Assembly: GCA_032358255.1 (NCBI GenBank)
Contig: JAULBX010026230.1
Span: 8,275-50,851 of the forward strand
Origin: Heterotrichella gracilis
Lineage: Eukaryota > Sar > Xanthophyceae > Tribonematales > Xanthonemataceae
Length of the DNA: 42,577 nucleotides
Reading direction: 5' to 3'
Part shown: in pieces, positions 1,348 to 37,547 of the stretch
Layout of the letters: each line of letters starts with the position of its first letter
Position numbering within the stretch: position 1 is the stretch's first letter
The notes under the pieces: generated by a model
The model's database searches: none
What the model saw: the letters and a program-made list of their open reading frames with translations, nothing else
Told to the model about the DNA's origin: nothing
Translations under genes and position numbers: made by a program

Positions 1348-4300
1348 CTACGGCATCCTACTCGACCTAGCCATAGTTGACAAGCTGATGATGCGCCGCA
1401 TCTTGCCCCCCCCCTGCGTGTACCCCTGGGGCCCCCCATCCGCATCCGTCCTGTCCCGCACAATGAGGAACAGCCCCGCCAGGATGCCCAGCGCCCCCAG
1501 GTCCCACCAGCTGGGCTGCTCCCCCAACACCGTGAACGCAAGGAGGGTGCCGGCAAAGGGCTGTAGGCACTGGAAGGCGGCCACCTGAGGAGAGTGAAGG
1601 GAAGAGGAAAGGGGGGTGTCAGGAGTGAGGGGAGGGGATTCTACCCAGTGGATGATCGTGAGGTTTATACTTCAATGTTGGAATGAAGAGTGCACTGGAT
1701 GCCAATAGTGTGCCAGCAAGGGCTGCAGGCACTGGAAGGCGGCTACTGGGGGGGGGGGGGGCAAAGGAGGGTGTCATTCACGAGGAGGGGGTGGTATGTG
1801 AGGCGATGCCGTTAGCAAGGGAAGGGAATTCAGAGGTAAGAAGTGGCTGCATGTGCAAGCAGGTGGGAATGGAAACTTCTTGCATGGCGGAAACGACCAC
1901 AAGGCACCCTCAAGCCCCACCTAAATCTCATTGGTTTCCCAGTCAATACCGCCTTTATTTGCTTCATTGTATAAGCATCATTTTCACATGTATTTAGGCG
2001 CATCATTATTATGAATAGGTATTGTAAAATATTTCAGCCCCTCCAACCAACCACCCACCTGCGACGCCGGCAGGTGCTGCGTGGCCCACGTGACCACAAA
2101 ATATCCCACCACGCTGCACACCACCACCCAGTACACCAGCGGGCCCCACAGCGGCCGCGCCAGCACCCACTCCCCCTCTGCGGTGGTGGCCAGGGCAGTG
2201 CACCCCATGGCCACTGAGGCGGTGACGTAGGCCCAGGCGGCGAGGCACGCGGGGGGGTATTTCACCACCAGCTGCTTCGCCACCAGGAAGTAGAGGGCCA
2301 TGGCGAGGGTGTTGGCTAGCAGGCACATGTTGCCAGTGATCATGGCGGTGGTGGAGGTGGGGGTGGAGGGGTGGGAGTGGAGGCCGCCCATGACCTGGGG
2401 GGAGGGGGGTGGGGTGAGGTGGCGCAGCCATTGTGCAGGGTGTCTGTGGGCATGTTTTGGGAGCAGGATGCATGGTGCATGATCGGAAATGTGCAGGAGT
2501 ATGGCGCCATGGCTAGGGTACTGGCCAGCAGGCAAGTTGCCAGCGATCAAGATGGTGGTGGAGGTTGAGATGGAGGGGTGGGAGTGAAGCCCACCCATGA
2601 CCTGGAGGGGAAGGGGGGGTAAGAGTTGGGGCAGGGTGCATGGGGCATGATGCATGACTGGCAAGGGTGCATTTGGCCACCACCACCACCACACCACCAG
2701 CATCACTACAACGACAACAACGACTCTTTCATCTCGTACCATGCAAAGGAGCACCCTAATCAACCCCCGCACCCACCGCCAGCCGTACCATGCTGACAGA
2801 TACCCTCACCACCAGCGCTATCCCCGCCCACCCTGCAGAAACCTGCCTCACCGCAATGATTGGTGTGAACACTGCCATTGCCACCACCGCCGCCATTGCC
2901 ACCACCACCACCACCACTATCACAAACCTAATGCCCCCACCCGTGACCACCGCCGACACGCACCATGCTTATGCTCCCCCCCACCGCCAGCGCGATCCCC
3001 GCCCCCTTTTGGAGGGACCCCGCCTCCTGCCGCGTCACCACCGCGATGGCTGCAGTGAACACCGGAATGGTGGGCTGCATGCAGGTCGCCACCACCACAC
3101 CCGACAGGTTGATACCCAGGATGTAGAACAGCTGGTTGAGGTACAGGAGGACGCCCAGGGACGCCACGCGTGCCACGTCGGCTGCGCGAGGCAGGGCGAT
3201 GCCTGTGCGGTGGGGAATTGGGGGGGTAATGAGTGGGGATTGCAGGTTAGAACAGCTGGCTGGTACCAGAGTGTGGAACATTTTGCTGGTTAGGTATATA
3301 CACGCATTCCAGCAGTTCAGCCAGATTAGTGTGTGGAACAGCTGGTTGAGGTACAGAAGATGCCCAGGGACGCCACCCGCACCAGGTCGGCTGCTTAGGG
3401 CAGGGCGATGCCTGCGTGTGGGTGGGAGGTGGGTGGGTGGAGACGGGTGGGTGGTGGGGCGATGAGTGGGGATTGCAGGTTATGAGAGCTGCTTGTTGTC
3501 CAGTGTGTAGAACAGCTGGTTGAGGTACAAGAGAATGCCTGTAGATGTTTTAAGAAATATTTACTTCAATTCGATGTATCAGTAATCAACTTGTGTCAAA
3601 TGTACTTCAATTATTGTATCGTTAATTACTTGCCTCAGTGAAATAACGATACAACAAACCAGTATACTTTCTGCTTTATTGGCCGTAACCCCATCCCCAT
3701 CCCCACCTGTGAGTCCCCACGACAGCGCCACCAGTATTGGCCAGGCGGTGACCTCCCGCAGGAACGCAAACACCACGGGGTTGAAGGCCTCGCCTCGATC
3801 CGCAGACAGCGACGTCAGGCTGGCTTTGAGGTAGACCGAGCCAATGCAGAAGGCTATTTGCGTGATGGCGAGGGTGAGCTGGCACTGCCAGGGCTTGATG
3901 TCGGAGCCAGTGAGGCCTGCGGGTAGGGGGATATATGGAGGGTTGGAGGGTGGCAGCTATCCAAGAATGAGGCATACAGATGGCTAGCCATATGTAGCAG
4001 TACCGGGGATTTGAGCGTACAGGCCCTGAAGTGGAGCATGCAAGGGTTTTGAGGCAGCCCGATGCGAGATGCAGAGGGCTATTTGTGTGAGGGCTGGGTG
4101 TGCTGTCAGTGCCAGGGATTGATGTCGGAGCCAGTGAGGCTTGTGGGAAGGGCGATGGTAAAATGCACGCACATTAGAGTTTAGGGGTTGGGAGCTAATA
4201 AGGGTTGGTTTACAGTGCAGTGCTTTTGAGTCGCAGTGAGGTTCAGGGCCTTTGTCACACACACACACACACACACACAGCGGCTGGTTGCCCCACCCCT

Positions 4301-5906: not shown

Positions 5907-8900
5907 ATGTCCGCCGTGTGGCGCCAGTCTCCTCGAAATGAAGGCTTGGCCACGGAACACTCGTACAGGGACTGGCATGCCCGGAGAATGCAGTCTGTGG
6001 ACTTTGGCTTGACGCTTTCGATGCCCGCGCTCATTGCGTACATGGCGTACAGGAATTGGGCCGACGACCGGACTGCTGCGCGTCAGGAATCCATAGGTAG
6101 GTCAGGCGACCAGCTCATAGCTAGGTCAAGCGGTGGCGGGACAATTGCACCACTAGAAGTGTCAAGTGAGGTGTGCTCTATGCGGTAAAAACCCGGCAAA
6201 GGGTGTCATCGGTCCTTGCATGGTACAGATAGCATATTTCGCACACAAACCCTGTGCATACAAGGTAACACTAAGTGTTGCATGCCCAACTGTGGCTAGG
6301 CTATCCACCCTTAACCCTAACGCTCTTTTTGTGTGTTGCCTGCAGAATGGCTGTCGTTTGTGGTGCGCTTCTGCATAATGGACCTCACAATCATGCTACA
6401 GGTCAGTTGCGGCACAACCTCCCCTTTGGCCACCACCCTCGGCTGGCATTAACAGTGACTCTCTCGATATGATAACCCACTAGCACTTTAAGGCACTTTA
6501 AGACAGCAGCTGGATGTCGAGGCGTGTATTGAACAGGCCGTGGTGATGGTGGATTCCCTCTTAGAGGTACCCTCCGCCCACTGCCAGTTGCTGCACACAC
6601 TCTAGCCACCACACCCGTACACAAACGCAGCAGCGCTAGCACCACCATCCACCACACACAGTTCCACTATGGGCAAAGTCTTTAACCCTGAACTCTTCAC
6701 CATAAATATTAACCCTAAACCTATATGGGACGCTGCTAATGTTGCGGATTATGTCATGGCCAGCGCTTTGCCCCTGCGTGCACACGGTCTGCCCCGTTAC
6801 CCTAAACCCTAACTCCCAATCACCCTGTCGCCGCAGGCGCCGCACCTTCGGCGATGGCCATTGCTCCGTCCCTGGGTGCACATGGTCCGACAGTGCCTGT
6901 ACCTGGCCATCAGCTGCCGGAGCATCAGCACCTATGTGGCTAACCGGGGATCCCTGGATGACAGGAAGTGGGTGTGCACGTGTGGCGAGGGTTTTAGGGT
7001 TTCCTTGCTGAGTGGTGTAAGTGTACAAAAGGGGCTAGGATCGAGGGTTTCCTTGACGACTGTATACCCCCCCCATAACCCCACCCACATCCCACAGAAG
7101 CTGCCGCTACAAGCTCTATGGCTATCACGTGCACATGCCATTCACCCAGTAGTGCTCCTCTTCACACGCTGCTGTGCGCAACATCCATGTCAATGCCCCC
7201 CTCCCCCCCCATCCATAGGTGCAGCCAGAAGTACTACGGCTACCACATGCACATGTCCATGGTGCGGCTGGTACTCCCCCTGGCGCTGGACTTGGATATA
7301 GAGCACACATGCCTGCACGCCCTTGCGCTCATGGTCATTGACTGGAGGGATGCTGTCCCCACCATGTGCACCGCGCTGCAGGCCATGCCATGCAAGTAGG
7401 TGTTGCCTAGGGTTTTGGTGCATCCTCGTTAGGGTTTGGCGATGCGCTGCCCAGCATGTGCTGGGCGCTGCAAGCCATGCCATGCAGGTATGGGTTGGAT
7501 GTGCGGGCCCTTGTCTACGGCTTTGATGCATAAACCTCAGGGTTTTGCGACGCACTGCCAGCCATATCCAGGCGCTGCAAGCAATATTCTGCAGGAAGGC
7601 TTGCGTGCCATTGCCTAGGGTTTTGGTGCTCACTGGGTAGGGTTTTTGAGGCACAACGATAAACGTGTGCAATGCGCTGCATGCCATGCCACGCAGGTAG
7701 ACAGGCGTACCCTAGCCAAGGGTTTTTGTGTGCCTTGGGTACAGAGTGTTGGCTAGGTCAGCATTTTCGCCCTGCAGGTATAGGGTTTTATGTGCTTTCG
7801 GTGTGATTTGAATGTAGCGCGTTAGCCAAGGGTTTGGTGCGCCCTGTGGGATTTATTTTCGGTGCGGAGCGTAGGGTTTGGCAGCGCCCTGGCTAAGATT
7901 TTGGTATGCCATGCTGGGGCGCACTTGGCACTGGGCGGGCAGCGCGCACTGCCCACCATGTACAAGCCATGCCCTGCAGTCGGCCGATGTGCCCTAGCCA
8001 AGGGCTTTCGTTGCGAGGAATCCACAGATGTACTGCCATAACGCTGAAGTGCAGGAATCCCGAGGCGTTTTCCCATCCCCAGGGACCATGAAGACGTGGT
8101 GCTGCTGCGCATGCTGCACACGGGCATGTGCTGGATGCTGGGGCTGGACCCTCCACCATGGATGGAGGGGGTGGAGGCCACAATGGAGCCAATGAACGCA
8201 TGCCTGCTGCTACGGTGAGGAGAAATGTAGGATGCGGATGAGGGGCATCCTACATTGAGGGCCTTTGATAAGAGTGCAAATTAACTGGACAATGGTGGCT
8301 GGTTCAGCAGGGTCCATGCAACCCGTTGACCACTCGTCTGTTCTGCATGGTCACTTAAGTCATTATATCAGAGTCAATACCATCGGCCACTATCTGATGC
8401 TGTACAGGTTCATGCCATATACACTAACATTCTGCCTCTCGGTACTGACTTAATCAGGGGATATATGACAAAGGACTGACGCTTCCCTCCCCTTGTTTCT
8501 GATTTCAGGCGCTTTGTCTCCCTTGTGTCGCACGCCTTGCCTGTGGGGGTGCAGTACTTGCGGGCCAAACTCGCCAGGCTGGCGTACCGCACACAGGTGG
8601 GACACTGCTGTTGCCTGTCCTTCTTGTCTGACGTCCTTGCCTAGGTTTTGCCCTGGTTTCTGTGACAGCAGGGGTTCTAACCAGGAACTCCAGCCTGGCA
8701 TTGCCCTGGTTCCTGGTTTACAGTATTAACACCCTTAGTTACAGCTTTCTTAAGAATTCAGCTTTTTAGTGCCCTCCCCTTTCCTTAATCTGCTCATTTT
8801 CTCTCAGGTAGGGCACATGGCCCCAGGGGAGCGCAGGATGGAGCTGCGGGAGGTGGCTGAAAACGGGGTCATCATTGCTGTTGCGGTGCCGTGCATGGCT

Positions 8901-8975
8901 GGCGTGGCGTACGTGTGCCTGTGCGTGGTGGAGCAGTGGGGCCAGGGGGCGGGAGAGGGTGGGTGGGTCATGTGA
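5907..8975 (+). CDS. Multi-pass membrane protein of unknown family, copy 1 (7 exons)
   Basis: Exons: 5907-6096, 6346-6401, 6837-6967, 7219-7395, 8083-8214, 8509-8596, 8808-8975. They give 942 nt and 313 aa with matching phases. I do not recognise the family. Visible parts: a basic stretch YRDWHARRMQSVDFG leading into a hydrophobic segment that ends AYRNW; a short exon WLSFVVRFCIMDLTIMLQ; WVHMVRQCLYLAISC; KYYGYHMHMS followed by RLVLPLALD and a Cys/His pair (TCLHALALM); MLHTGMCWMLGLDPPPWM; and a C-terminal hydrophobic helix (VIIAVAVPCMAGVAYVCLC). About six membrane spans are likely. The gene was modelled by comparison with its downstream tandem paralog, and exons 2-5 have identical lengths in both. 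The start is the first ATG in frame; the N-terminus is 34 residues shorter than in copy 2. Intron 6 is absent from copy 2. Confidence 0.78.
7437..7980 (+). repeat. Array of decayed exon 4 3'-end copies in copy 1 intron 4
   Basis: After the true donor at 7396, the exon end (GCGCTGCAAGCCATGCCATG-like, then CAG and usually GT) recurs with ends near 7487, 7594, 7696 and 7979. Between copies sits a TAGGGTTTTGGTGC-type string. The second and fourth junctions keep GT; the third has GA. All are degenerate. Reading past the true donor meets an immediate stop, so later donors would give a truncated protein. Confidence 0.85.
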
Positions 8976-9994: not shown

Positions 9995-12738
9995 ATGGGT
10001 ACCAATGATCCTAGTGCTTCATACAGCACGGCCAGACCCAAACACAGTACTCGTGAGAAAGAGCCTGGTAGCCCAGAACGTTTTGGCTTGTTCCCACGAC
10101 CGACGGCTCGGACATTTCGGCCACTGGCCTTCGAGGATCCAAGTGATGAGCTAGCTTACCGGGACCTGCAAGCTCGGCGGATGCGGTCAGCCGACTTTGG
10201 CGTGGTCATTATCCAACCGTTAGTGATGGTTTTCCTGGCGTACAGGAACTGGGTGGGTGGGCAAGTGCCTACCAGGGAGGCCAAAGGTGAGACAAGTCGG
10301 TGTTGGGTGTTTGACCTGGCGTGCACACAACTCCCCAGCGTTCCAGCTGTTGCTGGGTTTGCTTGCAACCTGCACTGTATTCCTGCCTCCAAACCGTGCT
10401 CACGCAAAGTTTGGGGTGTGAAATAGAGTGGGGTTGTAAGTTTCTTTGTGTTCTGTTCTTGGGCGTCCATTCAACCGGCACTTCACACCAATGCAATGGC
10501 TGACCAGCCTACTACTGTAGTATTTCAGCAATTAGGCACCCAGTGGGTGTCTGTACCCCATACTCGACGTCCATTGCACGCACCGGATCCATATGTTGCC
10601 CATGAAGCCACACACTTTTGAAAAGTGGCGTTAATAATAGCCAGTTGGCAGCCTCAGTGTCAAAACATGGCCATGGTGCGCCCTATCCAATCGTGTGCGT
10701 GTGCTGATGCAGACTGGCTGTCGTTCGTGGTGTGCTTCTGTATACTGGACGTCACGATCGTGCTACAGGTCAGTTGCCCCCCCTCCTCCCCCTTGCCACC
10801 AACCTTGACAACCCTAAACCCTAAACCCTGAACTGTCCTTGTGCTGCCAAGGTGCTACTTACTTGTGCTGGGCACTTTTGTGCCAGCAAGCAGTGTGCCA
10901 GCAAGCAGTGTGCCACCAGCACTCAAATCGCCACCCGCTCTGACCAGGCTGTGTTCCGTGCGTTGAACAACCTGCTTTTGGTCAGGGTTTGAACCCCAAC
11001 AACGTACCCCATATCCTAGGCCGTCAGCCCTAAACCCTGAACCCTAAACCTCCTGGGTGCTGCAGTTGCGGCGCCTTGCGTCCTGGCCAGCGCTGCGCGA
11101 GTGGGTGCACATCCTCCGCCAGTCTGTGTACCTGGGCATCAGCTGCCGGATCATCAGCAGCTATGTGGCCAGCCAGGGTTCTGTGGACGGCAAGCGGTAC
11201 GTGCAGAAGGGAGTTGGGGTTTCCTTGATGATCGATCACTCCATGATGGCGGCAGGTATTTTATAGTGGGTCTAGGGTTAAGGGTTACATGGATGATTGG
11301 CGGTGGGTAGACAAATGGGAGCTCACGTACCGTGCGCACGCGAAGTAAGCTCCCTGTCCCCGGCAGGCAACTTGCTCCCCCTCCTCCCCCACACGTATAC
11401 ACGCTTACCACCTGCACATGTCCATGTATACGCCAAACGACGACACTTACACACACCCCTCCTCCCCTCCCCGCGCAGGTGCACCCAGAAGTATTACAGC
11501 TACCACGTGCACATGTCCATCTTCCGCATGGTAGTCCCCCTGGTGCTGGACATGCGCATGGAGTACACATGCCTGCACGCCGTGGCGCTCATGGCAATCG
11601 ACTGGTGCGACGCGCTGCCCACCATGTGCAGGGCGCTGCAAGCCATGCCATGCAGGTAGGCCACATGACCTAAAGTAGGGTTTTGTGCACACTGGGTAAG
11701 GGCTTTGCGGCACAGTGACAACCATGTGCAGGGCGCTGCAAGCCATGCCACGCAGGTATGGGTTCACCGCCCCCTTTCTAGGGTATTGGTGCATCCACTG
11801 TAGGGGTTTGCGACGCGCTGCCCACCATGTGCAGGCCGCTGCAAGCCATGCCATGCAGGTAGGCCTTGGCTAGGGTTGCGGTGCAATTACTGTAGGGTTT
11901 TGCGATGCGTTGGCCCCCATGTGCAGGGCGCTGCAAGCCATGCCATGCAGGTACCTGCAGATATGCAGATACGTATGTCTGTGATTTCAGCGCCCTAGCT
12001 AAGGGTTTGTTGTGGGGGGATTTGGGGTGCTCAACCACTTTTCTTGCCGGCCACTACAATCTGTTTCCAAAGAGCCAAGTTCCAGACATCCACCGATGTT
12101 TCCCATCCCCAGGGATCGTGAGGACCTGGTGATGCTGGGCATGCTGCACACAGGCATGTGCTGGATGATGGGGCTGAACCCTCCGCCTTGGATGGAGGGG
12201 GTCCCGTCGGCCATTGCCCCAATGAATGCATGCCTACTGCTACGGTGAGCGAAAGAAACCCTACAGGGAGTGTCTACGGTATTCGTCCTGCCGTGCCTAT
12301 GTTGGCCATTATGGCCCATGCACGACAAGGTATTGTGTTGGCAGGCGATTTGGAGGTTGCAGTAGCGTTTTTTATTACTCCTCCACACCTCGAATTAGTA
12401 TGATATATGTAACCAAACAGAAAAGGAACATCATCTCATGTGAATTTTCGAGGATTTCAGCAAGACTGGTGATTTCCCCCCTTGTTTCTGGTTCCAGGCG
12501 CTTCATCTCCATTTGTGCCAATGGCCTCCCGGTGGGGGTGCAGTACGTGCGGGGGAGGGTTGCCAGGCTGGCATTCCGCACACAGAGGGGTGACATGGAC
12601 CAAATGGAGTACAAATTCGCGCTGAGGGACGCGTGTGCAAGCGCGGTGGTCATTGCGGTCGCTATGCCGTGTATCGCTGCCTTTGGGTATGTGTGCCTGT
12701 GCGTGGGGGAGCAGGGGGGGCAGCGGATGCGAGGGTAG
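9995..12738 (+). CDS. Multi-pass membrane protein of unknown family, copy 2 (6 exons)
   Basis: Exons: 9995-10286, 10713-10768, 11066-11196, 11479-11655, 12113-12244, 12498-12738. They give 1,029 nt and 342 aa. It is a tandem paralog of the upstream gene: exons 2-5 have the same lengths and phases, and the proteins align without gaps through WLSFVV, WVHILRQSVYLGISC, KYYSYHVHMS, TCLHAVALMAIDW, MLHTGMCWMMGLNPPPWMEG and GLPVGVQYVRGR. The last exon fuses the positions split in copy 1 (RTQ-RGDM). The N-terminus is longer, with a Pro/Arg-rich cytoplasmic-looking lead (FGLFPRPTARTFRPLAFED) before YRDLQARRMRSADFG. The start is the first in-frame ATG. Function is unknown; the conserved Cys, His and PPPW positions are candidates for functional residues. 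Confidence 0.78.
11700..11955 (+). repeat. Array of exon 4 3'-end copies with intact GT donors in copy 2 intron 4
   Basis: Behind the true donor at 11656, three further copies of the exon end GGGCGCTGCAAGCCATGCCA plus the CAG-GT junction end at 11755, 11858 and 11950, a spacing of 100, 103 and 92 bases. All three keep GT. They are less decayed than the array at the same intron of copy 1, which has similar spacing. Confidence 0.9.
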
Positions 12739-14839: not shown

Positions 14840-14840
14840 G

Positions 14841-14969: not shown

Positions 14970-14984
14970 GATTACACGGCGCAA

Positions 14985-15052
14985 GCCCCCTTGTGCCGTG
15001 CTTCACTCGGCACAAGCCCCCTTGTGCCGTGCTTCACTCGGCACAAGCATCA
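14985..15052. repeat. 31-base direct repeats, each with a hairpin
   Basis: The unit AGCCCCCTTGTGCCGTGCTT followed by CACTCGGCACA is present twice in full, with partial edges. Each contains the inverted pair CTTGTGCCG / CGGCACAAG around a 9-base loop. Confidence 0.85.
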
Positions 15053-15123
15053 CCGATGCAAGTCTACCCCCCACACCACCAGCACTGTACCCCGGAAGGG
15101 CGGGTCCGCGCATAAGTACCCGG

Positions 15124-20179: not shown

Positions 20180-20212
<33 letters not shown>

Positions 20213-22095: not shown

Positions 22096-24945
22096 ATGTC
22101 GTCTACAATGCTTCAGTACCAGGCAGCGCCGTGCTTCCCTACCTTGTCATCCGCACAAACCCTATGTGGCACGCCATCCCACGCGCATGAAAGCCCCAGC
22201 TCGTCAGCCCCGCCCGCCTCGCCCCTGGTCCTCCCAGCCCTCAGGATACCCAGCCTGACCAATGCTTCACCCAGGATGGCGCAGCTGTTGGCCCCATTCC
22301 AGTCCCAGCTCCGCACCAGCCTATCCCTCCTCCAGGATTGGTTCGCGCACATGGTGGAGCCTTCATCTAACAGGCTCGCCTACGGATTCAACCCTCGTAC
22401 AGCCGCCCGTGACCCATTGGCCGTCACGCAGAGCACGGTTCGGGACTTGGGCACAGTCACGTCCCTGGGTGTGCTCCAGAGCTTTGTGGGGGGCCAGCGT
22501 TTCGACCCGGTGATCAACGCTACCCTGTACGACTATGAGAGGCACCTGGTGAACTGCCGCCTGTCGGAAAGCTCGTCCGGGTTGGACGGTGGCGGCGGCA
22601 GCAGCAGGCCAGGTAAATAGCAAACTAAACTACTGGGTTCAGCTGTGTTTTTGAAGTTGCCTTTCAAACTTGCCGCAATGCAGAGGTGGATGTTGGGGGT
22701 TGTGGAAATACACACTGGCATGTGGACATGCATCTCTGCACTGGACTCCACCTCCAAATGCTTGCCTTCTTCAAGGGTTACGAAGAAAACGTACTTCCAG
22801 TGTTTTGAGATGTGCACAACTGGCCCTTTGTAAACGTGAATGAGCTCACTGTTTCCATGTTGTTGATACCCCCGCCCCATTTGCAGTGACCTACTCTTCT
22901 GAACAGCAAGTCATTCACCACCCTTTACTATTACCCACCTCCCACCGCCACAGTCCAACCCAAATCACCCACCACCCACTCCACACTTGCCACGCACACC
23001 ACCCATCACCTCTCCCTGCCTCTCCCAGGCTCGCCAGACCAGGGCAACCGCAGCGTGTCCTGCTGGAGCTTCCTCAACACCCTGCCGCACGGCGACCAGT
23101 CCTGCATAGCCCACAACGCGTTCTTCCTGCTGGCCTTCCTGCACGCGCACTCCTATGCGTTCACCTCGGACCGGCACAGGCAGCTCAACTTGGCGAGGGT
23201 GGCCAACGGGATTGTGCGCCAGCAGCGGCCGGACGGCACCTACAGGTGGGTTTAGGGTTTGGCGTTTAGGGTTAAGGGTTTAGGGTTTGGCCCGGGCAGG
23301 CACAGGCAGCTCAACCTGGCGAGGGTGGCCAACGGGATTGTGCGCCAGCAGCGTCCCGACGGTACTTACAGGTGGGTTCAGGGTGTAGGGTTTGGCCCCA
23401 GCGGCACCTACAGGTGGTTTATGGTGTTGCATATTAGATTTAGTGTGTATGGTAGGGTTCGGCCCTTCAATGTTTTAGGGAACGCGAAAAAGGAAATGGA
23501 ACCCACGTCCTGTACAGCAACAGTCCAGTGTCAGGGAAGTCAGGCAGGCAGCTCATTTATTGAGGGTATAGGGGGTGAATGGCAGCTGGTGCAACGAGTC
23601 GTGCCTGTTGCATGCTACACTGCCATTGCATCACTTCAGGGCAGGTGGCCCTGGTGCTCCAGCCAACACACATTTCACAGGCGGTGCACCTGCCATTTTA
23701 CCTGTGCCGAACCCTTTTTGTGTTACTTGCCTGACCCCTGCGAAACCTTGTGTAGGGTGTACTACGCCGCCAGCCAGCAGAGCGACGCGGGGTTCCAGCT
23801 GTACTCTGGCGAGGCCATGCTGGCGCTGGTGAGGGCATTCGAGGAGCTGCAGGAGCCGTCCTACCTGGCGTCTGCTGAGAAGGCCATCGTGGCGTACAGG
23901 AGGCTGTATGACCAGGTGGGTTTGCGGAGGAAAACGTCTAATATAGTGTGTGAGTGTGGACTGGCTTTGGGAGGACGCTGTTGCCGTGGCGTGGCGGTTA
24001 TCAGTTGCGCCATGCATCTACCAATGGAGCTAGGGACATTGGCACGTTATCCTTCTGGCGTGGCGATTACCAGTAGTGAAATGCATTCACCAAATGTGGT
24101 TGGGGACACTGGCAACTTCAACGTTTAGATTCGGCCTCCTTTTGCCTCATCGCACATACAGACGTTATTAGTGCAACCATGCTCACCTTCCCTCTCAACC
24201 CCCCCGCAGGGCGCCATCGACCGCAGCCACCTGGTGTTCTTCGCCAACTGGCAGACCCAGGCCGCGCGCCTGCTGGTGCACCACACCGAGAAGCACGCGC
24301 TGCGCCACGAGGTGCAGCGCTACGTGCGCCAGATGCAGGACCAGGTGATCGACCACGTAGGGTTTTTCGAGGGGCTGGAGCGCGACCCGGGGGCGGTGTC
24401 CACGGTGGAGTGCGCGTGTGCGCTGGAGGGGCTGGCGGACGCGTATGCGATGCTGCTGGTGGAGGGGGGGAGGGCCAAGCACGAGGGGCGCATGCGCAAG
24501 TATGAGCGCGCCATCGGGCAGGCGCTGGCGTTCCTCCTGCGCGTGCAGGTGCGTGGCTGGCGGCAATAGCAGTGATGTACGCTTTTTACATAATGCTTCA
24601 CAGCATCCTATCCTCATGCGTGGTTTGCCAGTGGCACGACCCACCGCAGCACAGCAGACAGGGGTGCATCCTTCCCGTGCGTGAATGCCACTGTCCTTGG
24701 AAATAACCCACAATGAGTGTGGGACCAGTTGGACATCTGATGCGTATGCACACTGCCTGATATCAATACTCCTCTCCCTCTCTCCCCTTCAGGTCCAGCC
24801 AGGCGAGGGTGTCCCCCCCTTGGCGGTGGGTGGCTTCCCCCACGGCCTGCAGCGCCCCCAGCAGCGGGTGGATGTGGGGGGCCATGTGGCCAACGCCTTC
24901 ATCAAGCTCATGGCCCTGGGTAACCAAGGGTCAAGGGAGGAGTGA
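22096..24945 (+). CDS. Alpha/alpha-toroid (six-hairpin glycosidase-like) protein, probably organelle-targeted (5 exons)
   Basis: Exons: 22096-22612, 23029-23245, 23756-23915, 24210-24548, 24793-24945. They give 1,386 nt and 461 aa with consistent phases. The first about 60 residues are rich in Ser, Pro and Ala and poor in acidic residues, as expected for a transit peptide. The rest is helical with repeated small-residue motifs typical of an (alpha/alpha)6 barrel: HNAFFLLAFLHAH, LYSGEAMLALVRAFEELQEP, ASAEKAIVAYRRLYDQ, FFANWQTQAARLLV, and the last segment GGFPHGLQRPQQRVDVGGHV. This order (YSGEAMLAL, then W-Q, then a D-x-x-x-H segment) resembles six-hairpin glycosidase-like proteins, but I cannot name the family or substrate, and catalytic residues are uncertain. 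The GT in GCCCTGGGTAACC near the stop could be a donor to a further exon. An extra in-frame exon copy sits in intron 2. Confidence 0.78.
23302..23373 (+). other. Candidate cassette exon: in-frame copy of toroid-gene exon 2 end
   Basis: This 72-base segment starts after GGGCAG, ends at CAG-GTGGGT, and is phase 2 on both sides, so including it adds 24 residues without shifting the frame. It repeats the 3' part of exon 2 (HRQLNLARVANGIVRQQRP, then DGTYR). It differs at five coding positions (TTG/CTG, CGG/CGT, CCG/CCC, GGC/GGT, ACC/ACT), all synonymous. The preceding 56-base stretch (23246-23301) would have to act as a very short intron with a poor pyrimidine tract. Alternatively it is simply intronic sequence of recent origin. 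Confidence 0.6.
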
Positions 24946-27278: not shown

Positions 27279-30200
27279 TTACAAAAAGTAGTCCTCCTCC
27301 TCCGAATCCCGCCGAAATGTCGACATTTCATGGGCCCGTTCCTGGGACCGCTCCGGACCCCACCTGTTCCCCCCCCACCCCTGGTGGTTCACACCATCCC
27401 CCACCCTCCCACCTCCCTCCTCACCCTCCTCCCCACCCGCCAGCCACCCGTTACTCGCCAAGGGCTGGTGGTTCGCCCAGAAGGGGGACGGAGGATGTAC
27501 AAAAGAGGGGAGGGCGGCTGTCGGCGGTGTGGTGGTGGGGTGCGCGGGGGGCTGGGGTCGTGGGGGACGCTGCGCAATTTGTGGGGATTGGCGGTAGCTG
27601 ATGCTGTGTTCCCGGGATGGCGCCTGCTCCTTCTCCTTGCTTTCATACAGGCTTTGGAGCAGGATTTGGCCCACTGCTACCCGCTCTGGTGCATCGCTGC
27701 CGCCCCAGGAATTGACGCCCTGCAACACATTTTCATTCACTACATTCAATAACTAATCAAGAAGGTCAAATATCATTTCAGGTGGCATGCATCAACACCC
27801 CACAATTCAATTCCCAGGCATGAACGAAAAAATAGTAATAATAAGTACCCGCCGCAGGGAAACTATCGCCTCCATCAAGGCAAAGAATAGTTACATGGGC
27901 ATAAGCAAATCAATTCGGGGCTGCAAATATCATGCAGACACCCTCCCACCCTCCAGTCCCAACAACCCACTCTACATGCGAGTCCTGTGCCCTGCCTCTC
28001 CCCCCATCCCATTCCCCGACCCTGTCCCTCACCTGTGCAGCCCCTCCCCCGCCTCCTCTCAAGAAGAACTCAGCCGATCCAAACACCGACCCGCTTGGAC
28101 TCACCCCCCTGTACCCCCCCTGGTAATACCCCACTTGATGGTAGTACCCCTGGGCCCCACTGGCAGGCACCGGAGAGGGCCCGTGGCCACTGCCTGTGAG
28201 GTGGCCAAGGGGGTGTAGCATCGAGTGGGAGGGGGGGGCGTGGGAGGGGTCATCGCCCCCTGGGGGTGCGCCTGCGTGCTCGGATCGCTGCATGTTCTGC
28301 GATGTGGGGGGAGGGTATTGGCAAGGGCACTAAACATGAGATAAATAATCCATTTTATGATGGCGCGAGGCAATTAGGCGCTGACTACTAATCTGGCTGC
28401 GCTGCTGGAACGGCAAGGATGGTACGTAATGATCTCAATGATAAACAGATCTACTTCAACATGCATATTGAATCATGATAACCCCAGAATCTACTTACAA
28501 AAAGCAAGGTGCTTACTGACATGCACCCCCTGACCCCCGCTGACAAGAGCACTGGACACAGCATCAATCAGGCGCAGCAAAACCCAAAACCTTGTACGGT
28601 TTCCCAAAAACCCCAAAGGGCTTCCTCAAAGTACCGCAGCATTTCCTCCCCGTTGTTTCCCCCCCGCACCTGCAGCATCTGGCTGTACGGATTGTAGTGT
28701 GTGGAGGGCATGACGCCAGGGTGTTGCCCCTGACCCTGCCCCTGTGCCAGGCTGGTGAGCAGCTGCCTAGCTGAGGGGGAGGGGTCCCAGTGGGGGTAGG
28801 TGGCGGCAAAGGTGATGAGGGATTTCTCCATCTTGCCCTGCCGGCTCTGGGCGGACTGCAGCAACACAAAGTTACAAACGGGTGTTCAGTGTTGATCGCA
28901 GTGAGGAATGGTTTGCATGTATTATTTCCCACTAGTTTTGCACCCAATCGCGCGCTGCCCCTTACTTCTTACACTGTTATATTTATTACAGTATTTGAGG
29001 TTATGGTGGTGCCGGCCAAACAGGGCGTAAGGCCCAACCACCAGCCACCAGCCGAGGCACGGTAGCCATCTGCTCAATTCCTGTTGAGCCCCTCAATCTG
29101 CCTCCAAACGGCCTCTACAACCCTCTCTGCCCCACCCACCTTGGCACTGCCCAACTCCCAGTGTTCAGGCAAATTTTAAATGTGAGACCCTACAAGATAC
29201 ACCTTTGCCACCGTGGCCGCTGCCCCGTACTTACAGTTGCCGTGGCGCTGGAAGTCAAACCTCTAAACCCTAGACTCGTTAACCCTAGAAACCCTACCTT
29301 TGGCACCGTGGCCGCTGCCCCGTACTTGGGGTTGCCGTGGCGTTGGAAGTCAAATGCAGACAGGCTGCATATGTGTCCCACCCCATCCACGTCCACAGTG
29401 AATTCCCGCACAAACTTGAGGATGGCGCCTGCGGTGGGGAGGGTTGGGAGGGTAGGGGTTGGCAGGGTTTGGGCGTACGGTGGGTGGAGAGGTTTGGGCG
29501 CCCAGCCTGTAGGTGTGGTGTGGTGATCCTCTACGCAACTGAAGGGTTTAGGATTTGCCAGCTCTTGCACAATGAGCAGCGCCTTGTCAAGAACACACCA
29601 TCAACCCCGCGCAGCACCTGCGAGCGGTGTGCACGCGCATGCACCACTACCTACAACCAGTACTGGAGCAGGCCTCTCATACCCTAAACCCTGAAAAACA
29701 CTGCACCTCAAGGTGAGTGCTTGCGTGCGCCACTAACAGCTACACTACCTGCAACCAGCTACCACTCCACCCCCCCCCACCCACCTGCGCACTGTGGCAA
29801 CAACAGGTAAAGCACAACGGGCGTGAGCAAAATACCGGTCCTGGCCAGCTACTCCACAACGCGAATCGCCTTGTATTAGAACAGGCATTCAAATCCTACA
29901 CCGTAAGCCTACAAGACCCGTATACCCCCTGCACCGCGGCGGAAAGCGCATCCATGAGCCACTAAATACCAAGATACCTGGCTACAACTACCTACCCACC
30001 CACCTGCACACTGCGGCAGCGAGAAGTACAGCACAAAGGGCGTGAGCAAAATGCTGGCCAACTCCTCCACAAAAAGCAGCGCCTTGTACTGAAACAGCCC
30101 CTCAAACTCCCCTTGGATCTCGGCAGTGTGCGCGCGCGTGCGCCAGTGGCGGGGCAGCCAGTGGGTGTGCGCCACCACCTCCAGGAGGGCCATCTCGGGA

Positions 30201-33200
30201 TCAAAGGAGGTCCCCGGCTCGATGATGAAGGCGCGGGAGACGGCCAGGACGATGCCGAGTGTCGCGCCCCACCTGCAAGGGTTTGGGGGTTTAGGGTTTA
30301 GGGTTTTGGGTTCTGGATGGCCAGTACGATGCCCAGGGCTGCGATCCCACCTATGGGGGCGGTAGGGTTTCGGATTTTGAGGTTTGAGATTGAGGTTTTT
30401 AAGGTCCCGGATTCACTCATAGAGGCGCAGCACGTCCAGCACATGATGAGCATGGTACCCCATCCGCACTGGTGAAAGGATTTAGGGTTTTACAGGGCTT
30501 TATGATCTGTGGCGAAGGCCAGCAGCCTGCTGAGTGGGTGTTACCCCACCAGTTTACCCCAAAGCCTGTCAACCCTTACCCCCCTCAACTCGATTTCACT
30601 CACCACACCAGGTTCCTGCCCATGAGCTGCCTCTCCAGCAGCTGCTCATGCACCAGCGCAGCAGCAAGCAGCAGCGCGGCAAAGGAGCCTGTGATGAATG
30701 CGGCAAGCTTGGCCAGCTGGGTAAGGCTGGGGTTGGGGAACTGGCGGATGTAGTGCTCCGCTGCCCTGTGGGACGCGTTCAGCCTGCAAGGTGAAGGCGG
30801 GTCTTGGTTAGGGTTTTCTGGTTTGGGGTAGGGTTTAGGGGAACTGGCGGATGCAGTGCTCCACTACGCAGGGAGGCGTTCAGCCTGCGGTAGGGTTCAA
30901 ATGTTCAGGATGTGGTAAAGGAAACTGGAGCCCCCAGCTGCGCGCCATGAAATGTGTAACTGTGAGTGTTACTAATGTGGTGTAGAGCGATAGAAAGACG
31001 GGAGGACTTCATGTGGTTTGCCAGGTGAGAAAAATCCAAGGCAGCCTGTGTGATAGATAGCTGGGCAGGTTCTCCAAACCTTGATCAATGCAAGGTACCA
31101 GCCAAGGTACCAGCCATGCCCCCACCGCATAGCGCACAGTGTGGTTTATGGTGTGATGAAACCGCCGTCCCCACATGTGTGCGACACATAGTGCAGCAGC
31201 TCGTTTAACTCACCTATGCGACACATAGTGCGGCAGCTCGTTTAACTCCCGCAGCTTCCATTTCAAGGTGTGGCTTAAGAGGTTAATGTGTGGCCTAGGG
31301 TTTGAAGTGTGGGGTCTCACCTGTGCGACACATAGTGCGGCAGCTCGTTAAATTCCCGCAGTTTCCACTTTGCAAGCGGGGACCATCGGCGCGCGCCCAC
31401 GCTGGATGGGTGGTGGTAGAACTTCTCGGCATTCCTCAGGAAGAAGTATATGATGAGGAAGATGAGGAGGAAAGGGGAGACGAGCAGGTTGACCACCGCC
31501 ATGCGCCTGCGGGCGGGGGAGGTTGAGGTTAGGATAGGGTGTAGGGTTTAGGGTGACTACTGCCAAAGGTGCAGTCAAAATACTGCAGGTGGGGATGGAG
31601 TGGGTTGGACGGCTGCCCAGGGGAATTATTTGATGATATTAAGTGGCCCTTAATGATTGTGCGGAAATGCATGTTGCAGAATTACGCACCCTCGCCTCCG
31701 AGCCAAAGTCCAATCCCCAGAATGTACAGCGCCTCCTCGTCCATCCAAGACCTTGCCCCAGATTCCACCCACCTCAACCCCATCCCTACCCACCTGAACG
31801 TGCGCCGCAGCGCCTCCTCGTCCCTCCTGAAACCCTCTCTTAGCCGGAAGCTGTCGTCAAACATGCGGTCCAGCAGGCACCAGTACAGGTTCCACTCCAG
31901 GGTCTTGGTGAGGATGAGGTGCCCCCGCAGGCCCGGCAGGGGCACGTGGAGGGCCAGGACCCCCTTGTTGAGCATGCCGATGAGGTAGTTCTCCTTGCGC
32001 ATGATGCGGGACACGATGTCGTGCTCGGTGAGGTCGCGCGTCACGCACAGCCGGGTGGTCTTCTGGACCTGCGGGGAGGGTTTTGAGTAGGGTTTTGGTG
32101 TAAGATTTTGAGACACAATGTCGTGTTCGTTGAAATCGCGCTTCACGCCCAGCCAGTGGCCTTGAACACCTGCGGGGTGGCTTGTTGGGTAGAGGTTACC
32201 AGCAACCCCACCTCAACCCTACCAAACCACCCCTCACCTCCACCAGCAGGTGTACCCATGTGCAAGGTTGACCCTCCCGATGGTCCCAAACCCGGCATAA
32301 ACCCTATTCCAAACCCTTCGCACCTCCACCATCCGCCGCGCCACCTTGGGCCACGTGATGGTCTTGATGTGGCGCTCGGTGATGCCTAGCTTCACGGTGC
32401 AAAACCCTACAAATAACCTTACCTAAACGCTACCAAAGCGCTCCCCCACCTCCCAACCCATGTGCAAAGTTTGACCATCCCAATGGTCCCAAACCCTGCA
32501 TCAAACCCTGCATAAACCCTAGTCCAGACAATGCCCGCACCTCCACCATCCTGCGCGCCACCTCGGGCCACGTGATGGTCTTGATGTGGCGCTCGGTGAT
32601 TCCCAGCTTGACGTTGCAAAAGTGCTTCACCTCCGCTAAATCCTTGAGCTCCACCAGCAGGTGCGCGAGGTTGACCAGCCAGTAGAGGGAGAACAGCAGG
32701 AGGTAGGCGCAGGCTAGCAGGCGCCACCACAGGGGCCCGGCGCGCAGGGGGTGCGCATGGATCGCAACCTGGGGGAGGGCAGGGGGGGGCTGCCGTCATG
32801 CAGAGTAAACAGGGGGGGATGAGGAGCGATCGCGAGCCCCCTCAACCCTCGCTTTAGTCTTTTCCTGTTACATGCAATTTGACACAGCAACTGGCTCAGC
32901 AACAGCCTTTTTCTCGGTTGGTGCAGTAGCACTCGTCAATAGAGAGAGAACAGCACGAAATAGGTGCAGCGCCATCAAGGACAACTCTTATTATTGGCGA
33001 TGACGATCCAATAATGCCAAAATGTTTTGCTTTATGAAAAGCACACTCGCCCGGCCCGCAGCCCAATTCCCCCCCCCGTTTTCCGCACCTCCATTATGTC
33101 GCAGGTGCCCTCCTGTATGCATGGGTCCGACAGCCCCGCCCAGTTGACGCACAGCATGAGGAAGGAGGAGAATCCTACGGTGAACCCTAGGGCAACCAAG

Positions 33201-35037: not shown

Positions 35038-37547
35038 ATGGTGTCGATGGCACAGTCTTCGGTGTGGGGCAATACCCGCAGCCAGCAGCTGAACCACACC
35101 CGCAGCCACCACCACCGCCCCGCCGTTTCCCACTGCCCACCATCACCCTGCCAACCCATCCTCCAGTCGCACACATGCTTTGCACCCCTTGGCACCCACC
35201 CACCCACATGGAGACTGACCACCCCCGCTGTGGGGACCAGGGCAGGCCAGCTGTATCCCCGGGAGCAAAGAAAAAGGGCATCGCGGCCAAGGAGGGTAGC
35301 TTGCAGCAGTGGAGATGCGGCAGGCAAGGGACCTGAGGTGGGGTTTGATTTTTCAATCACATCAAATACCTGCGTATGTGTGCCAGGTCTAATGCTGTTG
35401 GCCGCCATGTATCATGGTATCAGTGACATCTACATCTGTATCATCAACGTGTACCTTGAGCCTGTCAGGCAATTTCAAACCCTAAACTTCTTATCACCAC
35501 ACCTGGTGCAGTGTCTGTCCTTGCCCATTGTACTAGTGTAGACTGCGCGTGAGAACGACAGTATCAAATCATTGGCTGCCAACGCTGTTTATGCACTGGT
35601 GCAGATCCTGACGTTACCTACCCTCCTCACCATCGGGCGGGTGCTGGCAATCCCCTTGCTGGTGGCAGGTGGGAATGTATGTGCATCCGCCATGTGGCGA
35701 CCTTCTGACGCAGTTAGCCTGTGTGCATCCTCCACGCGCATTCATCACGCCGCCATCCATCACATCCACCGATTTATGTCATGTGGCACCGCGGGTAATG
35801 TGCAGCAGTCATCTTCAGTGCAAGCGTCATGTGGCGCATTTGTCCACCCGCCAATTGGCGCCATGAGGCACCGGTGGCCATCGTGCATCCTCCATGTGGC
35901 GCCATCCGCCAGTGCATCCCGTCCCGTACCCCGCCACCGCATGCATTCGCCATACATGTAACATGGACGAAGCCTGTGGACACAGGCTTGCTCCATCTGG
36001 ACACTTTCTTCTCAAACTTCGCCCCACACATACCTTTGCTCTGCAGTGTGGTATTGCGCCGCAGCCAGCCTGAGCGCTTTAAACCCTACATATTGACTAA
36101 AACCTACCCCCTGCCGCAGTCTGGTATTGCACCCCTGAGAGCCAGCGCGCCCTAATCGCCACCGTGACCTTCGTCCTTGCATCCCTCACAGACTTCCTGG
36201 ATGGCTACCTGGCAAGGAAGATGGTAGGGAAGGGCAGGAACCCCGGAGACACCTTTCTGCCACATGAGATCTGCCCACGTGTCATCAGCCGCCTGTCAAA
36301 CCCTAAATCTAAAGTCCTCGACCCTAAACTCCATTGCCCTACCCCGTGAAGGACCTGATGACCCGGTTTGGTGCCCTTTTGGACCCCATGACGAAAACCC
36401 TAAACCCTAAGCCCCCTTGCCCTATCCTGTGCAGAATCTGATGACCCGGTTTGGCGCCTTTTTGGACCCCGTGGCTGACAAGCTGATGGTGTGCACTGTG
36501 CTGGTGCTGCTGTGCACTCGAGCGCCCTCCCTAGGCTGGCTGGCAGGGAACCAGTGGCTCATACCCCTGGCAACCACTGGTAGGTATAGTAAACATCCCC
36601 TGGGATGGGGGATACCCATCCACCTGTTGTTGTTGGGCTGTAACTGGTTGGGCTGTTTAGGGTTTAGGGTTTGTGACCGCTGTGGCTGCAGGACTGTTGA
36701 CATGTAGGATAGGGAGCTTGATAGTAGGGCTTGTGGGGGTATGCAGATTGTAACCGTGGCTGCATATTACAATAGATTAAGTTAATAATGTATAAATTAC
36801 ATTATTATTGTGCAGTGATTGTTGGGCGTGAGATCAGCATGTCTGCCCTGCGCGAGCTGGCGGCCTCATTGGGTGGCGAGGCGTATGGCAAGGTGGCTGT
36901 CAGCAAGATGGGCAAGTGGAAGACAGCCAGCCAGGTGAGGGAAGCACTTGTGGGGGTGAGGGGAGGGGCATGCATGGTGCATTGCACAGGGCGCATTCAA
37001 CAGGGTTAATTACTGAGATATGTAGCATGGAACGGGTGTGTCATGAGGGGAAGATAGACCAGCTTGTTTGTCGATGGCGCTGTCATGTTTACAACCGAAT
37101 CACACCACTTCACCCTCAGGCCATCACATAATACAGTCCTGTACCGACAGTCCTCCCCTTTGTCTCCCCTGGCAGATGGCCTTCCACACCCTGCTATTCC
37201 TCACATTATGAATAGGAGAATAGAGAAATGTGCTGTTTAGTCCCCTGCCGATATCCTCCTCGTCCTCCCCAGAGGGCCTTCCACACCCTGCCACTTCTCA
37301 CATAGGATAGTAAAATTGTGTCATTGTCTTATTTAGGGTCCCTGCCAATACCCTCCTTTTCCTCTCCTTGCAGATGGCCTCCCTCACGCTCCTGCTGCTC
37401 ACATGCGGACCCCTGCCATGGACGATGCCCTGCGCCGCCGCCACAGCCGCCGCCAACGCAGGTGCTGCGCTGCTGCTGGTAGCCACCTGGCTCACCGCGC
37501 TGTCATTGGCTGACTACCTGCGCGCTCTGTGGCCATACATGGGTTGA
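35038..37547 (+). CDS. CDP-diacylglycerol--glycerol-3-phosphate 3-phosphatidyltransferase (PGP synthase), plastid-type (6 exons)
   Basis: Exons: 35038-35337, 35605-35668, 36120-36223, 36435-36579, 36816-36934, 37374-37547. They give 906 nt and 301 aa with all phases matching. The enzyme joins CDP-diacylglycerol and glycerol-3-phosphate, making phosphatidylglycerophosphate, the committed step to phosphatidylglycerol, which is essential in thylakoid membranes. The complete CDP-alcohol phosphotransferase signature spans the exon 3/4 junction: DFLDGYLAR, eight residues, then GAFLDPVAD. Other family features are LTLPTLLTIGRVLAIPLL at the first helix and VIVGREISMSALRELAA. Exon 1 (100 codons) is rich in Ser, Thr, His, Pro and Arg and poor in acidic residues before GKGPE, fitting a plastid transit peptide; a mitochondrial presequence is also possible. 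The start is the first in-frame ATG of exon 1; an ATG four codons... in the same exon (MVSM) is equally possible. Introns carry copies of exon starts. Confidence 0.93.
36035..36080 (+). repeat. Copy of PGP synthase exon 3 start with acceptor
   Basis: CTCTGCAG then TGTGGTATTGCGCCGCAGCC repeats the true exon 3 start (CCGCAG, TCTGGTATTGCACC) about 80 bases downstream. It is followed by AAACCCTA. Confidence 0.85.
36345..36395 (+). repeat. Copy of PGP synthase exon 4 start
   Basis: CTGATGACCCGGTTTGGTGC and TTTTGGACCCC repeat the catalytic-motif-coding start of exon 4, 80 bases before the true one. The acceptor CAG has become AAGG and the copy ends in a Met-Thr-Lys run, not Val-Ala-Asp. Confidence 0.85.
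37155..37312 (+). repeat. Two copies of PGP synthase exon 6 start with acceptors
   Basis: CCCCTGGCAG-ATGGCCTTCCACACCC (37157-37210) and TCCTCCCCAG-AGGGCCTTCCACACC (37250-37305) repeat the true junction TTGCAG-ATGGCCTCCCTCACGC at 37374. Both keep AG and a pyrimidine tract. The first would read MAFHTLLFLTL then stop, so its use would truncate the enzyme. Confidence 0.88.

Follow-up and report, generated by a model that had tools for sequence, protein, structure and literature searches.

In the potato RdRp gene, according to the available part of the report, a tandem duplication crossing an intron-exon boundary led to the recruitment of a new intron, with RNA support (PMC4974935). In mouse cells, fill-in by CST and Pol alpha-primase at 3' overhangs yields small tandem duplications, as the accessible text describes (PMC8355091). 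The excerpted account of interstitial telomere loci gives plain duplication in only 3/66 horse loci and an intronic position for 31% of the human loci, a share held compatible with random insertion (PMC7215372). Single telomere units scattered in genes are also described as plant telo boxes, for which a telomerase model is proposed in the accessible portion of the source (PMC3022908).

We analysed a stretch of 42,577 nucleotides from Heterotrichella gracilis (the window), in which seven neighbouring genes (A-G) comprise 43 introns. Many of these introns hold an exon-end echo, that is, a copy of the adjacent exon end within the neighbouring intron. As in potato RdRp, the intron 3' end and the exon 5' start are duplicated and the extra copy is partly intronic. 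The potato case, however, concerns one gene and one event, and the available text mentions no telomere-type unit (PMC4974935), whereas here 22/43 introns of seven neighbouring genes are affected, as known from DNA alone. Direct local duplications, with adjacency of the copies seen in 13/21, partly resemble the direct adjacent copies of the CST/Pol alpha-primase system, where they result from staggered breaks. In that system the breaks are induced and the accessible text does not mention a dependence on telomere sequence, while the units found here are natural and measure near 95/193 bp (PMC8355091). Interstitial telomeric sequences left by break repair likewise consist of short internal telomere repeats, sometimes with direct site duplication; unlike in the horse and human loci of the excerpted account, introns and duplications are strongly over-represented here (PMC7215372). 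Plant telo boxes share the scattered single units, but they are enriched in 5' UTRs and not in introns in the portion available (PMC3022908), whereas our units are intronic and tied to duplications. As in intron gain by tandem duplication, extra splice signals are supplied; here the echoes sit inside existing introns, which lengthen, and no new intron is needed. Unlike introners, the 16 echo sides scoring at least 50 include no near-identical introns sharing one element. The median intron of the window measures 373 bp, against a mean of 206 bp for Chlorella vulgaris introns and 179 bp for those of Auxenochlorella given in the accessible part of PMC12636532. We consider it fairly probable that many local tandem duplications of ~95 or ~193 bp took place, that the echoes are their stranded, decaying remains, and that telomere-like 3' tips favour fill-in at staggered breaks.

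Echoes were called strictly when they scored above 60 dinucleotide shuffles and above every intron of the other genes (genes B and C were left uncompared with each other). By this cut-off, donor-side echoes were present in 13/43 and acceptor-side echoes in 13/43 introns of the window. The reverse-complement control exceeded the shuffles in 1/43 and 1/43, so that one or two of the weakest calls possibly reflect chance. For the 16 sides with a score of at least 50, no intron of another gene scored as high, which for weaker sides is part of the cut-off. The decay analysis covered 25 sides (the strict 26 minus A3 donor, B4 and F3 acceptor, plus G1 and G4), the homology test of the intron part 21 sides with weak ones omitted, and the list of coordinates and offsets 27 sides. 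With at least one strict case per gene and 33 alignments tallied in the decay analysis, the earlier note was right that all seven multi-intron genes carry such copies, more than twenty in total; its seven example stretches all contain them when matched to exon models. Its proposal that introns are lengthened also agrees with our data, since introns with an echo had a median of 449.5 bp versus 329 bp without (one-sided P=0.0035). Each intron side held one to three echoes, which speaks against a many-copy, homogeneous minisatellite or satellite array; TRF lists one exon-echo array as such (11606-11953 of the window). Rfam and tRNA scans of the sequence gave no matches. The echoes are the following:

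4045..4140, minus strand: gene A intron 1, start of exon 3916-3707; 82/94 identical, offset 224, acceptor AG lost
3332..3411, minus strand: gene A intron 2, start of exon 3202-2964; 69/80, AG retained, intron part between the copies homologous (z 15)
3500-3539, minus strand: gene A intron 2, second partial copy; 35/40
2494..2601, minus strand: gene A intron 3, start of exon 2394-2059 with AG; 91/108, offset 207, intron part z 8
1707..1746, minus strand: gene A intron 4, start of exon 1584-1367; 36/40, AG lost
6756..6789, plus strand: gene B intron 2, start of exon 6837-6967, weak echo; 27/34, C-type telomere units next after
7102..7141, plus strand: gene B intron 3, start of exon 7219-7395; 32/40
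7441..7700, plus strand: gene B intron 4, donor-side echoes, end of exon 7219-7395, telomere-type motifs between the units; 38/46 and 26/30
11388..11425, plus strand: gene C intron 3, start of exon 11479-11655; 33/36
11721..11953, plus strand: gene C intron 4, three donor-side echoes, end of exon 11479-11655; 34/35, 49/50 and 46/50, GT retained; array with TRF period 92 and 3.5 copies
16877..16946, minus strand: gene D intron 9, end of exon 17225-17038 with GT; 63/69
17386..17739 (17386-17499, 17668-17739), minus strand: gene D intron 8, two echoes, end of exon 18010-17854; 71/72 and 69/72; a 100-N gap (17500-17599) lies between them, and the 99% pair of this array is the least safe
18342..18374, minus strand: gene D intron 7, donor side, exon 18546-18441, weak echo; 25/33
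18807..18826, minus strand: gene D intron 6, donor side, exon 19078-18879, weak echo; 17/20, GT lost
23293..23371, plus strand: gene E intron 2, end of exon 23029-23245 with GT; 72/79, offset 126, several sense telomere units just ahead
29203..29259, minus strand: gene F (ATG9) intron 9, end of exon 29428-29298 with GT; 52/57, offset 95, adjoining telomere units
29785..29893, minus strand: gene F intron 8, end of exon 30272-30004 with GT; 82/103, with a second, more decayed copy (66/87) further along the intron
30316..30336, minus strand: gene F intron 7, start of exon 30272-30004, short echo; 18/21, C-type telomere units next after
30818..30884, minus strand: gene F intron 6, start of exon 30783-30604 with AG; 54/65
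31178..31267, minus strand: gene F intron 6, two donor-side echoes, end of exon 31506-31321; 50/54 and 31/34, GT in the first only
31727..31746, minus strand: gene F intron 5, donor side, exon 32068-31794, short echo; 19/20
32112..32163, minus strand: gene F intron 4, start of exon 32068-31794; 43/52, C-type telomere units next after
32324..32404, minus strand: gene F intron 4, end of exon 32768-32541 with GT; 74/81, intron part duplicated too (z 22)
32937..32969, minus strand: gene F intron 3, weak echo with its source 57 nt inside exon 32768-32541; 27/33
36355..36390, plus strand: gene G intron 2, start of exon 36435-36579 with AG; 33/36, intron part z 8, C-type telomere units next after
37176..37303, plus strand: gene G intron 4, two echoes, start of exon 37374-37547; 24/31 and 22/29, AG retained; narrowly misses the strict cut (1/39 mismatched introns scored as high), with two copies present

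The placement of the copies was analysed for exons of at least 120 nt with mononucleotide shuffles. Exon ends recurred in the following intron in 11/29 cases and exon starts in the preceding intron in 13/31, versus 0/29 and 0/31 with the sides swapped. That is, 24/60 exon ends matched the intron predicted in the earlier note and 0/60 the other flanking intron. Tandem duplication across the exon/intron junction, the origin suggested there, explains this placement as well as the intron part of the unit, which was homologous between copies on 13/21 sides. The other 8/21 sides lacked such homology and showed more decay than the divergence of the echo itself predicts. Exon-only copying, with a unit ending at the splice site, had been considered because the 50 nt adjacent to the junction looked unrelated in most pairs; the homologous intron parts led us to drop it as the general case. 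Divergence differs between echoes, from 1% to 24%, and therefore indicates several duplication events and not one.

Two features go beyond the earlier note and are the main clue to the origin of the copies: their unit lengths near 95/193 bp and the telomere-repeat units at their boundaries. Among 87 duplications shorter than 290 bp, the periods cluster near 95 and 193 bp (means of a two-component fit; BIC 953 to 924). On a log scale, the likelihood ratio was 32.4 versus a bootstrap maximum of 22.6 in 200. TTTAGGG is the telomere repeat of the genome, as its arrays start six contigs, within the first seven bases and pointing outward. Units of this motif touch 34/60 inter-copy gaps (8-120 nt) versus 7.6 expected (maximum 16 in 500). 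A complete motif was missing inside 30/60 gaps, 10 of which have a one-mismatch 8-mer. Motif density followed duplication density across 23 loci (Spearman 0.87; 0.86 over 22 with the window removed), and within the window the share covered by motifs was 4.8% in introns, 0.35% in exons and 0.57% elsewhere. Same-oriented neighbouring motifs flanked a locally copied segment in 43/68 cases, as opposed to 0/68 in the control. Genome-wide, motif pairs 78-108 bp apart had the same orientation 4368 times and opposite orientations 554 times (reversed-pattern control: 7). Motif pairs also numbered 2215 at 128-158, 2178 at 178-208 and 1290 at 308-338 bp; the 95-bp class was thus present, and a separate 193-bp peak was not found in the genome-wide spacing.

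The best strict echoes were also examined at the edge of their exon fragment: the motif had the predicted orientation in 10/11 cases with a motif within 45 nt, and 15/26 edges had none within that distance. None of the four acceptor-side echoes of gene A has a motif at its boundary. A hairpin between donor-side G units and acceptor-side C units was rejected: by inspection, 4/43 introns combine G units in their first half with C units in their second, about the level of independence. Among the matches listed in the open-licence literature, no report of a link between telomere units and intron duplication was found.

How far the pattern extends was analysed with Pfam-anchored kinesin exons in 12 stretches picked for several exon matches, where 5/44 inter-exon gaps were skipped as too short. 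A home-made gene finder had been dropped in their favour, since no more than 19 to 32 of 50 known exons came out exactly right, and an ABC-transporter search was left out of the results because bacterial contaminant contigs might mix in. Echoes were found in 6/39 kinesin intervals, two or three of them marginal (scores 23, 24, 28), and no duplicated pair was detected in 12/25 unselected 10-kb stretches, three of which are low in GC. By these numbers the process is not uniform across the genome. Among the kinesin loci, the strongest echo of intron 134-230/217-273 occurs in a locus with no motif at all (L032), and the motif-rich locus L040 shows no echo. A subtelomeric origin is not favoured, as samples of the telomere-array contigs C70 and C140 taken 20-30 kb from that end (loci L013 and L020) held no pair and little motif.

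Duplication, placement, neutral decay, unit sizes, motif association and motif orientation are evident from the sequence itself. The route by which they would be connected runs as follows. When a unit spans one exon/intron junction, the transcript would still be spliced at the outer, original site and yield the same mRNA. That would strand the inner copy, an exon fragment followed by GT or preceded by AG, in the intron, where it decays neutrally as an echo. A boundary TTTAGGG unit, where present, is located at the end of the duplicated unit that faces the intron, and its G-rich strand points from there into the duplicated exon fragment. The units may arise at staggered breaks, i.e. nicks on opposite strands, with the 3' single strands filled in and joined; in plants, tandem duplications reportedly form at paired nicks. 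A telomere-like 3' tip could recruit the telomere fill-in machinery, CST together with DNA polymerase alpha-primase and perhaps telomerase. CST is the telomere fill-in complex, and by likeness to the fill-in in mouse cells its involvement would be the best mechanism for these duplications. Motif-bearing introns would then duplicate more often, every duplication adding another motif. Inside the gaps, G-type runs lie nearer copy 2 in 14/22 and C-type runs nearer copy 1 in 8/20, and the C-type position departs from the model prediction. We tentatively propose the larger picture of a telomere-machinery mutational process inside genes, whose single units mark one end of 95-/193-bp duplications genome-wide, plant more units and let introns grow in a self-feeding manner.

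Telomerase itself might instead add TTTAGGG to a 3' end during staggered-break repair, the motif being joint filler and not a pre-existing hot spot, a possibility we regard as real though rather unlikely. An exact motif occurs on the reciprocal intron copy in only 4/17 and 1/13 cases (control 0 and 0), a result more in keeping with insertion at the joint than with a motif already in place. The gaps carry a single motif orientation, with 1 exception showing both. Precedents are the duplicated horse loci (3/66), ascribed to staggered breaks in the excerpted account (PMC7215372), and the telomerase model for telo boxes in the available portion of PMC3022908. When the search was relaxed, however, motifs on the reciprocal side rose to 5/17 and 5/13 within 40 nt, 6/17 and 7/13 within 60 nt, and 12/17 and 8/13 within 90 nt; at this last distance, with one mismatch and the same orientation, the exon side gave 2/17 and 1/13. 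Furthermore, the boundary orientation (10/11) would be unexpected if either end could be extended.

It is unlikely that plain neutral tandem duplication and splicing account for the echoes and that the telomere-type units are unrelated, e.g. a matter of splicing-signal composition, G-rich near donors and C-rich near acceptors. An orientation bias of that kind does run through the introns as a whole (first and second halves contain 299 and 111 nt of sense G units, and 127 and 262 nt of C units), and junction placement can be explained without the motif. Within the window, introns with and without an echo cannot be told apart by motif presence (17/22 versus 12/21, Fisher P=0.14; density P=0.04). 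On the other hand, it is the exact telomere unit that is in excess, as the top 7-mer rotation class in window introns and motif-rich loci and rank 101 in motif-poor loci, although this comparison of 13 rich and 12 poor loci was grouped after the fact and describes rather than tests. Gaps with motif in the same loci (34 versus 7.6 expected) and the flanked copies (43/68 versus 0/68) also argue for a connection.

The earlier note had inferred a recurrent junction-spanning process. Recurrent events and tandem copies across the junction are borne out, but an aim at junctions is not needed. When the same 18 genic duplicate pairs were placed at random in genes, 9.2 were expected to span a junction, 4.4 to lie inside introns and 4.4 to be exon-exon or mixed; if the last class is mostly purged, ~67% junction cases follow. 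Short introns and purifying selection thus predict this share, and the introns are only about two to four duplication units long; echo prevalence differs widely between genes. A duplication aimed at exon/intron junctions, for example coupled to splicing or transcription, that recurrently builds introns and new splice sites seems quite improbable to us, even though 17/18 genic pairs were of the junction type (P about 0.008 among survivable classes, by hand) and only 1/19 duplications in the window was intergenic versus 5.4 expected. The junction excess is modest, and exon-derived copies are detected more easily, only one partner drifting freely.

A role of the echoes as functional alternative exon ends, or as regulated decoys for splicing under selection, is very improbable. 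Junction-reaching echoes did retain their splice dinucleotides (GT 13/15, AG 8/10), and similarity was higher in their exon-derived parts than in the 50 nt of intron next to them. But decay is neutral, with mismatches of 11.6/8.7/18.4% by codon position; 22/24 indels are not multiples of three, which marks the echoes as neutral decoys, and the 33 alignments include 4 stops. With all echoes left out, ATG9 forms a single open frame of 11 exons, and 570 of its residues match other green-algal ATG9 (identity of up to 67% over 97%). As the source of the copies, mobile introner-like elements and assembly errors are both hardly credible: most introners are known from fast-evolving lineages, green algae among them (PMC9860276, accessible part), and one N gap lies inside an array, but each echo copies its own neighbouring exon with no shared element (16 sides scoring at least 50), and the assembly artefact named as a refuter in the earlier note is unlikely as a general cause because echo identities span 99% to 76% with indels, unlike a collapse or overlap artefact.

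The clustering of units near 95/193 bp and the tie of TTTAGGG units to the duplications are new here. Intron lengthening and the origin of decoy splice sites are usually inferred from scattered single cases, and this genome offers a large set. About half of the introns in the seven genes carry a datable copy of known source, which gives access to duplication rate, size and placement under the splicing filter. They are a warning for annotation: the exon ends inside echo introns look convincing, and the splice dinucleotides of most are intact. Whether telomere fill-in machinery works on internal breaks, with tandem duplications as the outcome, becomes testable through this tie by comparing sequences alone, and the link could show how introns grow.

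The assembly that contains the window comprises 68.5 Mb in 903 contigs, and the genes in the window are eukaryotic and rich in introns. Exon models of seven multi-exon genes in it (A-G) were built from open frames and GT-AG junctions. In the final models all seven are in frame throughout, with approximate outer ends:

Gene A: EamA-type transporter (Pfam)
Gene B: 5907-8975, + strand, tandem paralogue of gene C
Gene C: 9995-12738, + strand, tandem paralogue of gene B, without a match in the Pfam scan
Gene D: cyclic nucleotide-binding domain (Pfam) in the scanned piece; we take the product to be channel-like
Gene E: weak, sub-threshold C5-epimerase match (Pfam)
Gene F: ATG9
Gene G: CDP-alcohol phosphatidyltransferase (Pfam)

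Since the best named relatives of the ATG9 protein belong to the Trebouxiophyceae (among them Myrmecia, Chlorella, Elliptochloris and Trebouxia, at 62-67% identity), the DNA of the window probably derives, judging by sequence affinity, from a trebouxiophyte-like green alga. The window also holds two tandem ORF copies on the minus strand, 77-80% identical and presumably glycosyltransferase-like (38082-39245, without a Pfam match, and 40479-41933, apparently interrupted from about 40851 to 41119). An intergenic 254-bp unit is repeated twice at 1-505 with 96% identity, and shorter tandem repeats lie at 14392-14485 and 14977-15048.

An earlier note had described diverged copies of neighbouring exon ends, here called echoes, in the introns of these genes; 43 introns (median 373 nt) were examined. 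The copies are real, and the example coordinates were correct. Under a strict local-alignment test, 13 donor-side echoes (an exon end in the following intron) and 13 acceptor-side echoes (an exon start in the preceding intron) were spread over 22 of the 43 introns, while the reverse-complement control exceeded shuffles in 1/43 cases on either side. Placement follows a clean rule: copies lay on the predicted side of the junction in 24 of 60 tests and on the other side in none of 60. Genes B and C carry donor-side echo arrays in the corresponding intron (7396-8082 and 11656-12112, respectively); by eye only, one echo of B seems to resemble the exon of C more than that of B, which would suit an array older than the gene duplication. 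A 100-N assembly gap (17500-17599) interrupts a near-identical array in intron 8 of gene D, where copy number is uncertain.

In 33 echo alignments, mismatch rates at codon positions 1, 2 and 3 were 11.6, 8.7 and 18.4%, as expected for a constrained exon and a free echo. Frame-breaking indels (22/24) and four stops were found in the same alignments, and the splice dinucleotide was retained in 13 of 15 (GT) and 8 of 10 (AG) cases. By these sequence features the echoes look like non-coding decoys. Introns with an echo are longer (median 449.5 nt versus 329 nt without; one-sided P=0.0035).

Tandem duplication across the junction, the origin proposed earlier, predicts that the intron part between the copies resembles the sequence past the second copy. 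When the two were aligned for 21 echoes, this likeness was significant in 13; in the other eight the intron part had decayed beyond what the divergence of the echo itself predicts, and it may have decayed faster or never have belonged to the unit. Duplication followed by a splicing filter is well supported. A process aimed at junctions, also suggested earlier, is mostly not needed. Random re-placement of the 18 genic pairs within the genes gave averages of 9.2 for junction, 4.4 for intron-internal, 0.8 for exon-exon and 3.5 for mixed cases; with the last two classes left out because most of them would change the protein, about 67% of pairs are expected at junctions. The observed 17/18 exceeds this (P about 0.008, calculated by hand), an excess to which easier detection of exon-derived copies can contribute. 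Intergenic duplications made up 1 of 19 in the window versus 5.4 expected.

Local duplications occur genome-wide, but patchily. Twenty-five unselected 10-kb stretches yielded 91 local duplicate pairs; 12 stretches had none, including three of low GC content (L006, L016 and L024; 35-38%) with a different dinucleotide bias and little motif, which are probably contaminant contigs. At 12 kinesin loci, chosen by family and several exon matches, echoes were found in 6 of 39 inter-exon intervals (three per side, some marginal). After nested pairs were merged, 89 duplications remained in window and stretches, and their period was bimodal: a two-component fit to the 87 below 290 bp gave 95 and 193 bp (BIC 953 to 924; log-scale likelihood ratio 32.4 versus a bootstrap maximum of 22.6). 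Both classes persisted without the window (95 and 190 bp).

The duplications are associated with a TTTAGGG-class 7-mer. TTTAGGG is the telomere repeat of this genome: six contigs (C70, C140, C526, C609, C717 and C770), whose starts are probable chromosome ends, carry an outward-pointing 42-base array that starts no later than their seventh base. Further array matches occur at other positions, and at least one (C120) is contig-internal. The motif touched 34 of 60 inter-copy gaps of 8-120 nt (expected 7.6; 500 re-placements confined to the same loci never gave more than 16), and its density correlated with duplication density (three low-GC stretches excluded, Spearman 0.87 for 23 loci and 0.86 for the 22 that remain without the window). 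Its coverage in the window is 4.8% in introns, 0.35% in exons and 0.57% outside the seven genes. In the sequences analysed, neighbouring same-orientation motifs flanked a locally copied segment in 43/68 cases (0/68 with flanks from other loci). Genome-wide, 4368 same-orientation TAGGGTTT pairs lie 78-108 bp apart (overlapping matches counted); the two opposite-orientation arrangements gave 343 and 211 pairs and the reversed pattern 7. Counts of same-orientation pairs at 128-158, 178-208 and 308-338 bp were 2215, 2178 and 1290; by this measure the 95-bp class is prominent and the 193-bp class not separate. Within the window the motif was not significantly commoner in echo introns (17/22 versus 12/21), and the kinesin locus L032 has a clear echo, yet no motif.

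For the best strict echoes, orientation was scored up to 45 nt from the edge of the exon fragment. Donor-side echoes showed the G-rich strand in sense in five cases, the C-rich in one and neither in seven; acceptor-side counts were zero, five and eight. Of the 11 informative cases, 10 thus had the G strand running from intron to exon fragment. Whole introns share this bias in weaker form, so the two biases are not independent. Position within gaps gives a less clear picture: the predicted place nearer copy 2 was found for 14/22 G-type runs, but that nearer copy 1 for only 8/20 C-type runs.

We favour an origin of the units at staggered breaks whose 3' ends are filled in; a telomere unit may already have been present at the intron end before duplication. 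Orientation would then be fixed because this unit sits at the intron end and exons are nearly free of the motif. In mouse cells, fill-in by Pol alpha-primase guided by CST, the telomere fill-in complex, yields small tandem duplications (PMC8355091). Addition of the unit by telomerase during break repair is likewise supported, in that only 4/17 and 1/13 cases had the exact motif on the reciprocal copy. At 90 nt, however, a relaxed test gave 12/17 and 8/13 on the reciprocal side versus 2/17 and 1/13 on the exon side; at 40 nt it gave 5/17 and 5/13 on the reciprocal side.

Tandem duplication crossing an intron-exon boundary is already known from a potato gene (PMC4974935), as are telomere repeats at repaired breaks, with plain duplication at 3 of 66 horse loci (PMC7215372); telo boxes of Arabidopsis and rice prefer 5' UTRs (PMC3022908; for further context PMC8226300, PMC12636532 and PMC9860276). 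Within the open-licence literature searched, we found no report of telomere units combined with intron duplications at such density and with two unit sizes. If staggered breaks with filled-in ends gave rise to the units, and a telomere unit already stood at the intron end, the motif and the duplications would reinforce each other.
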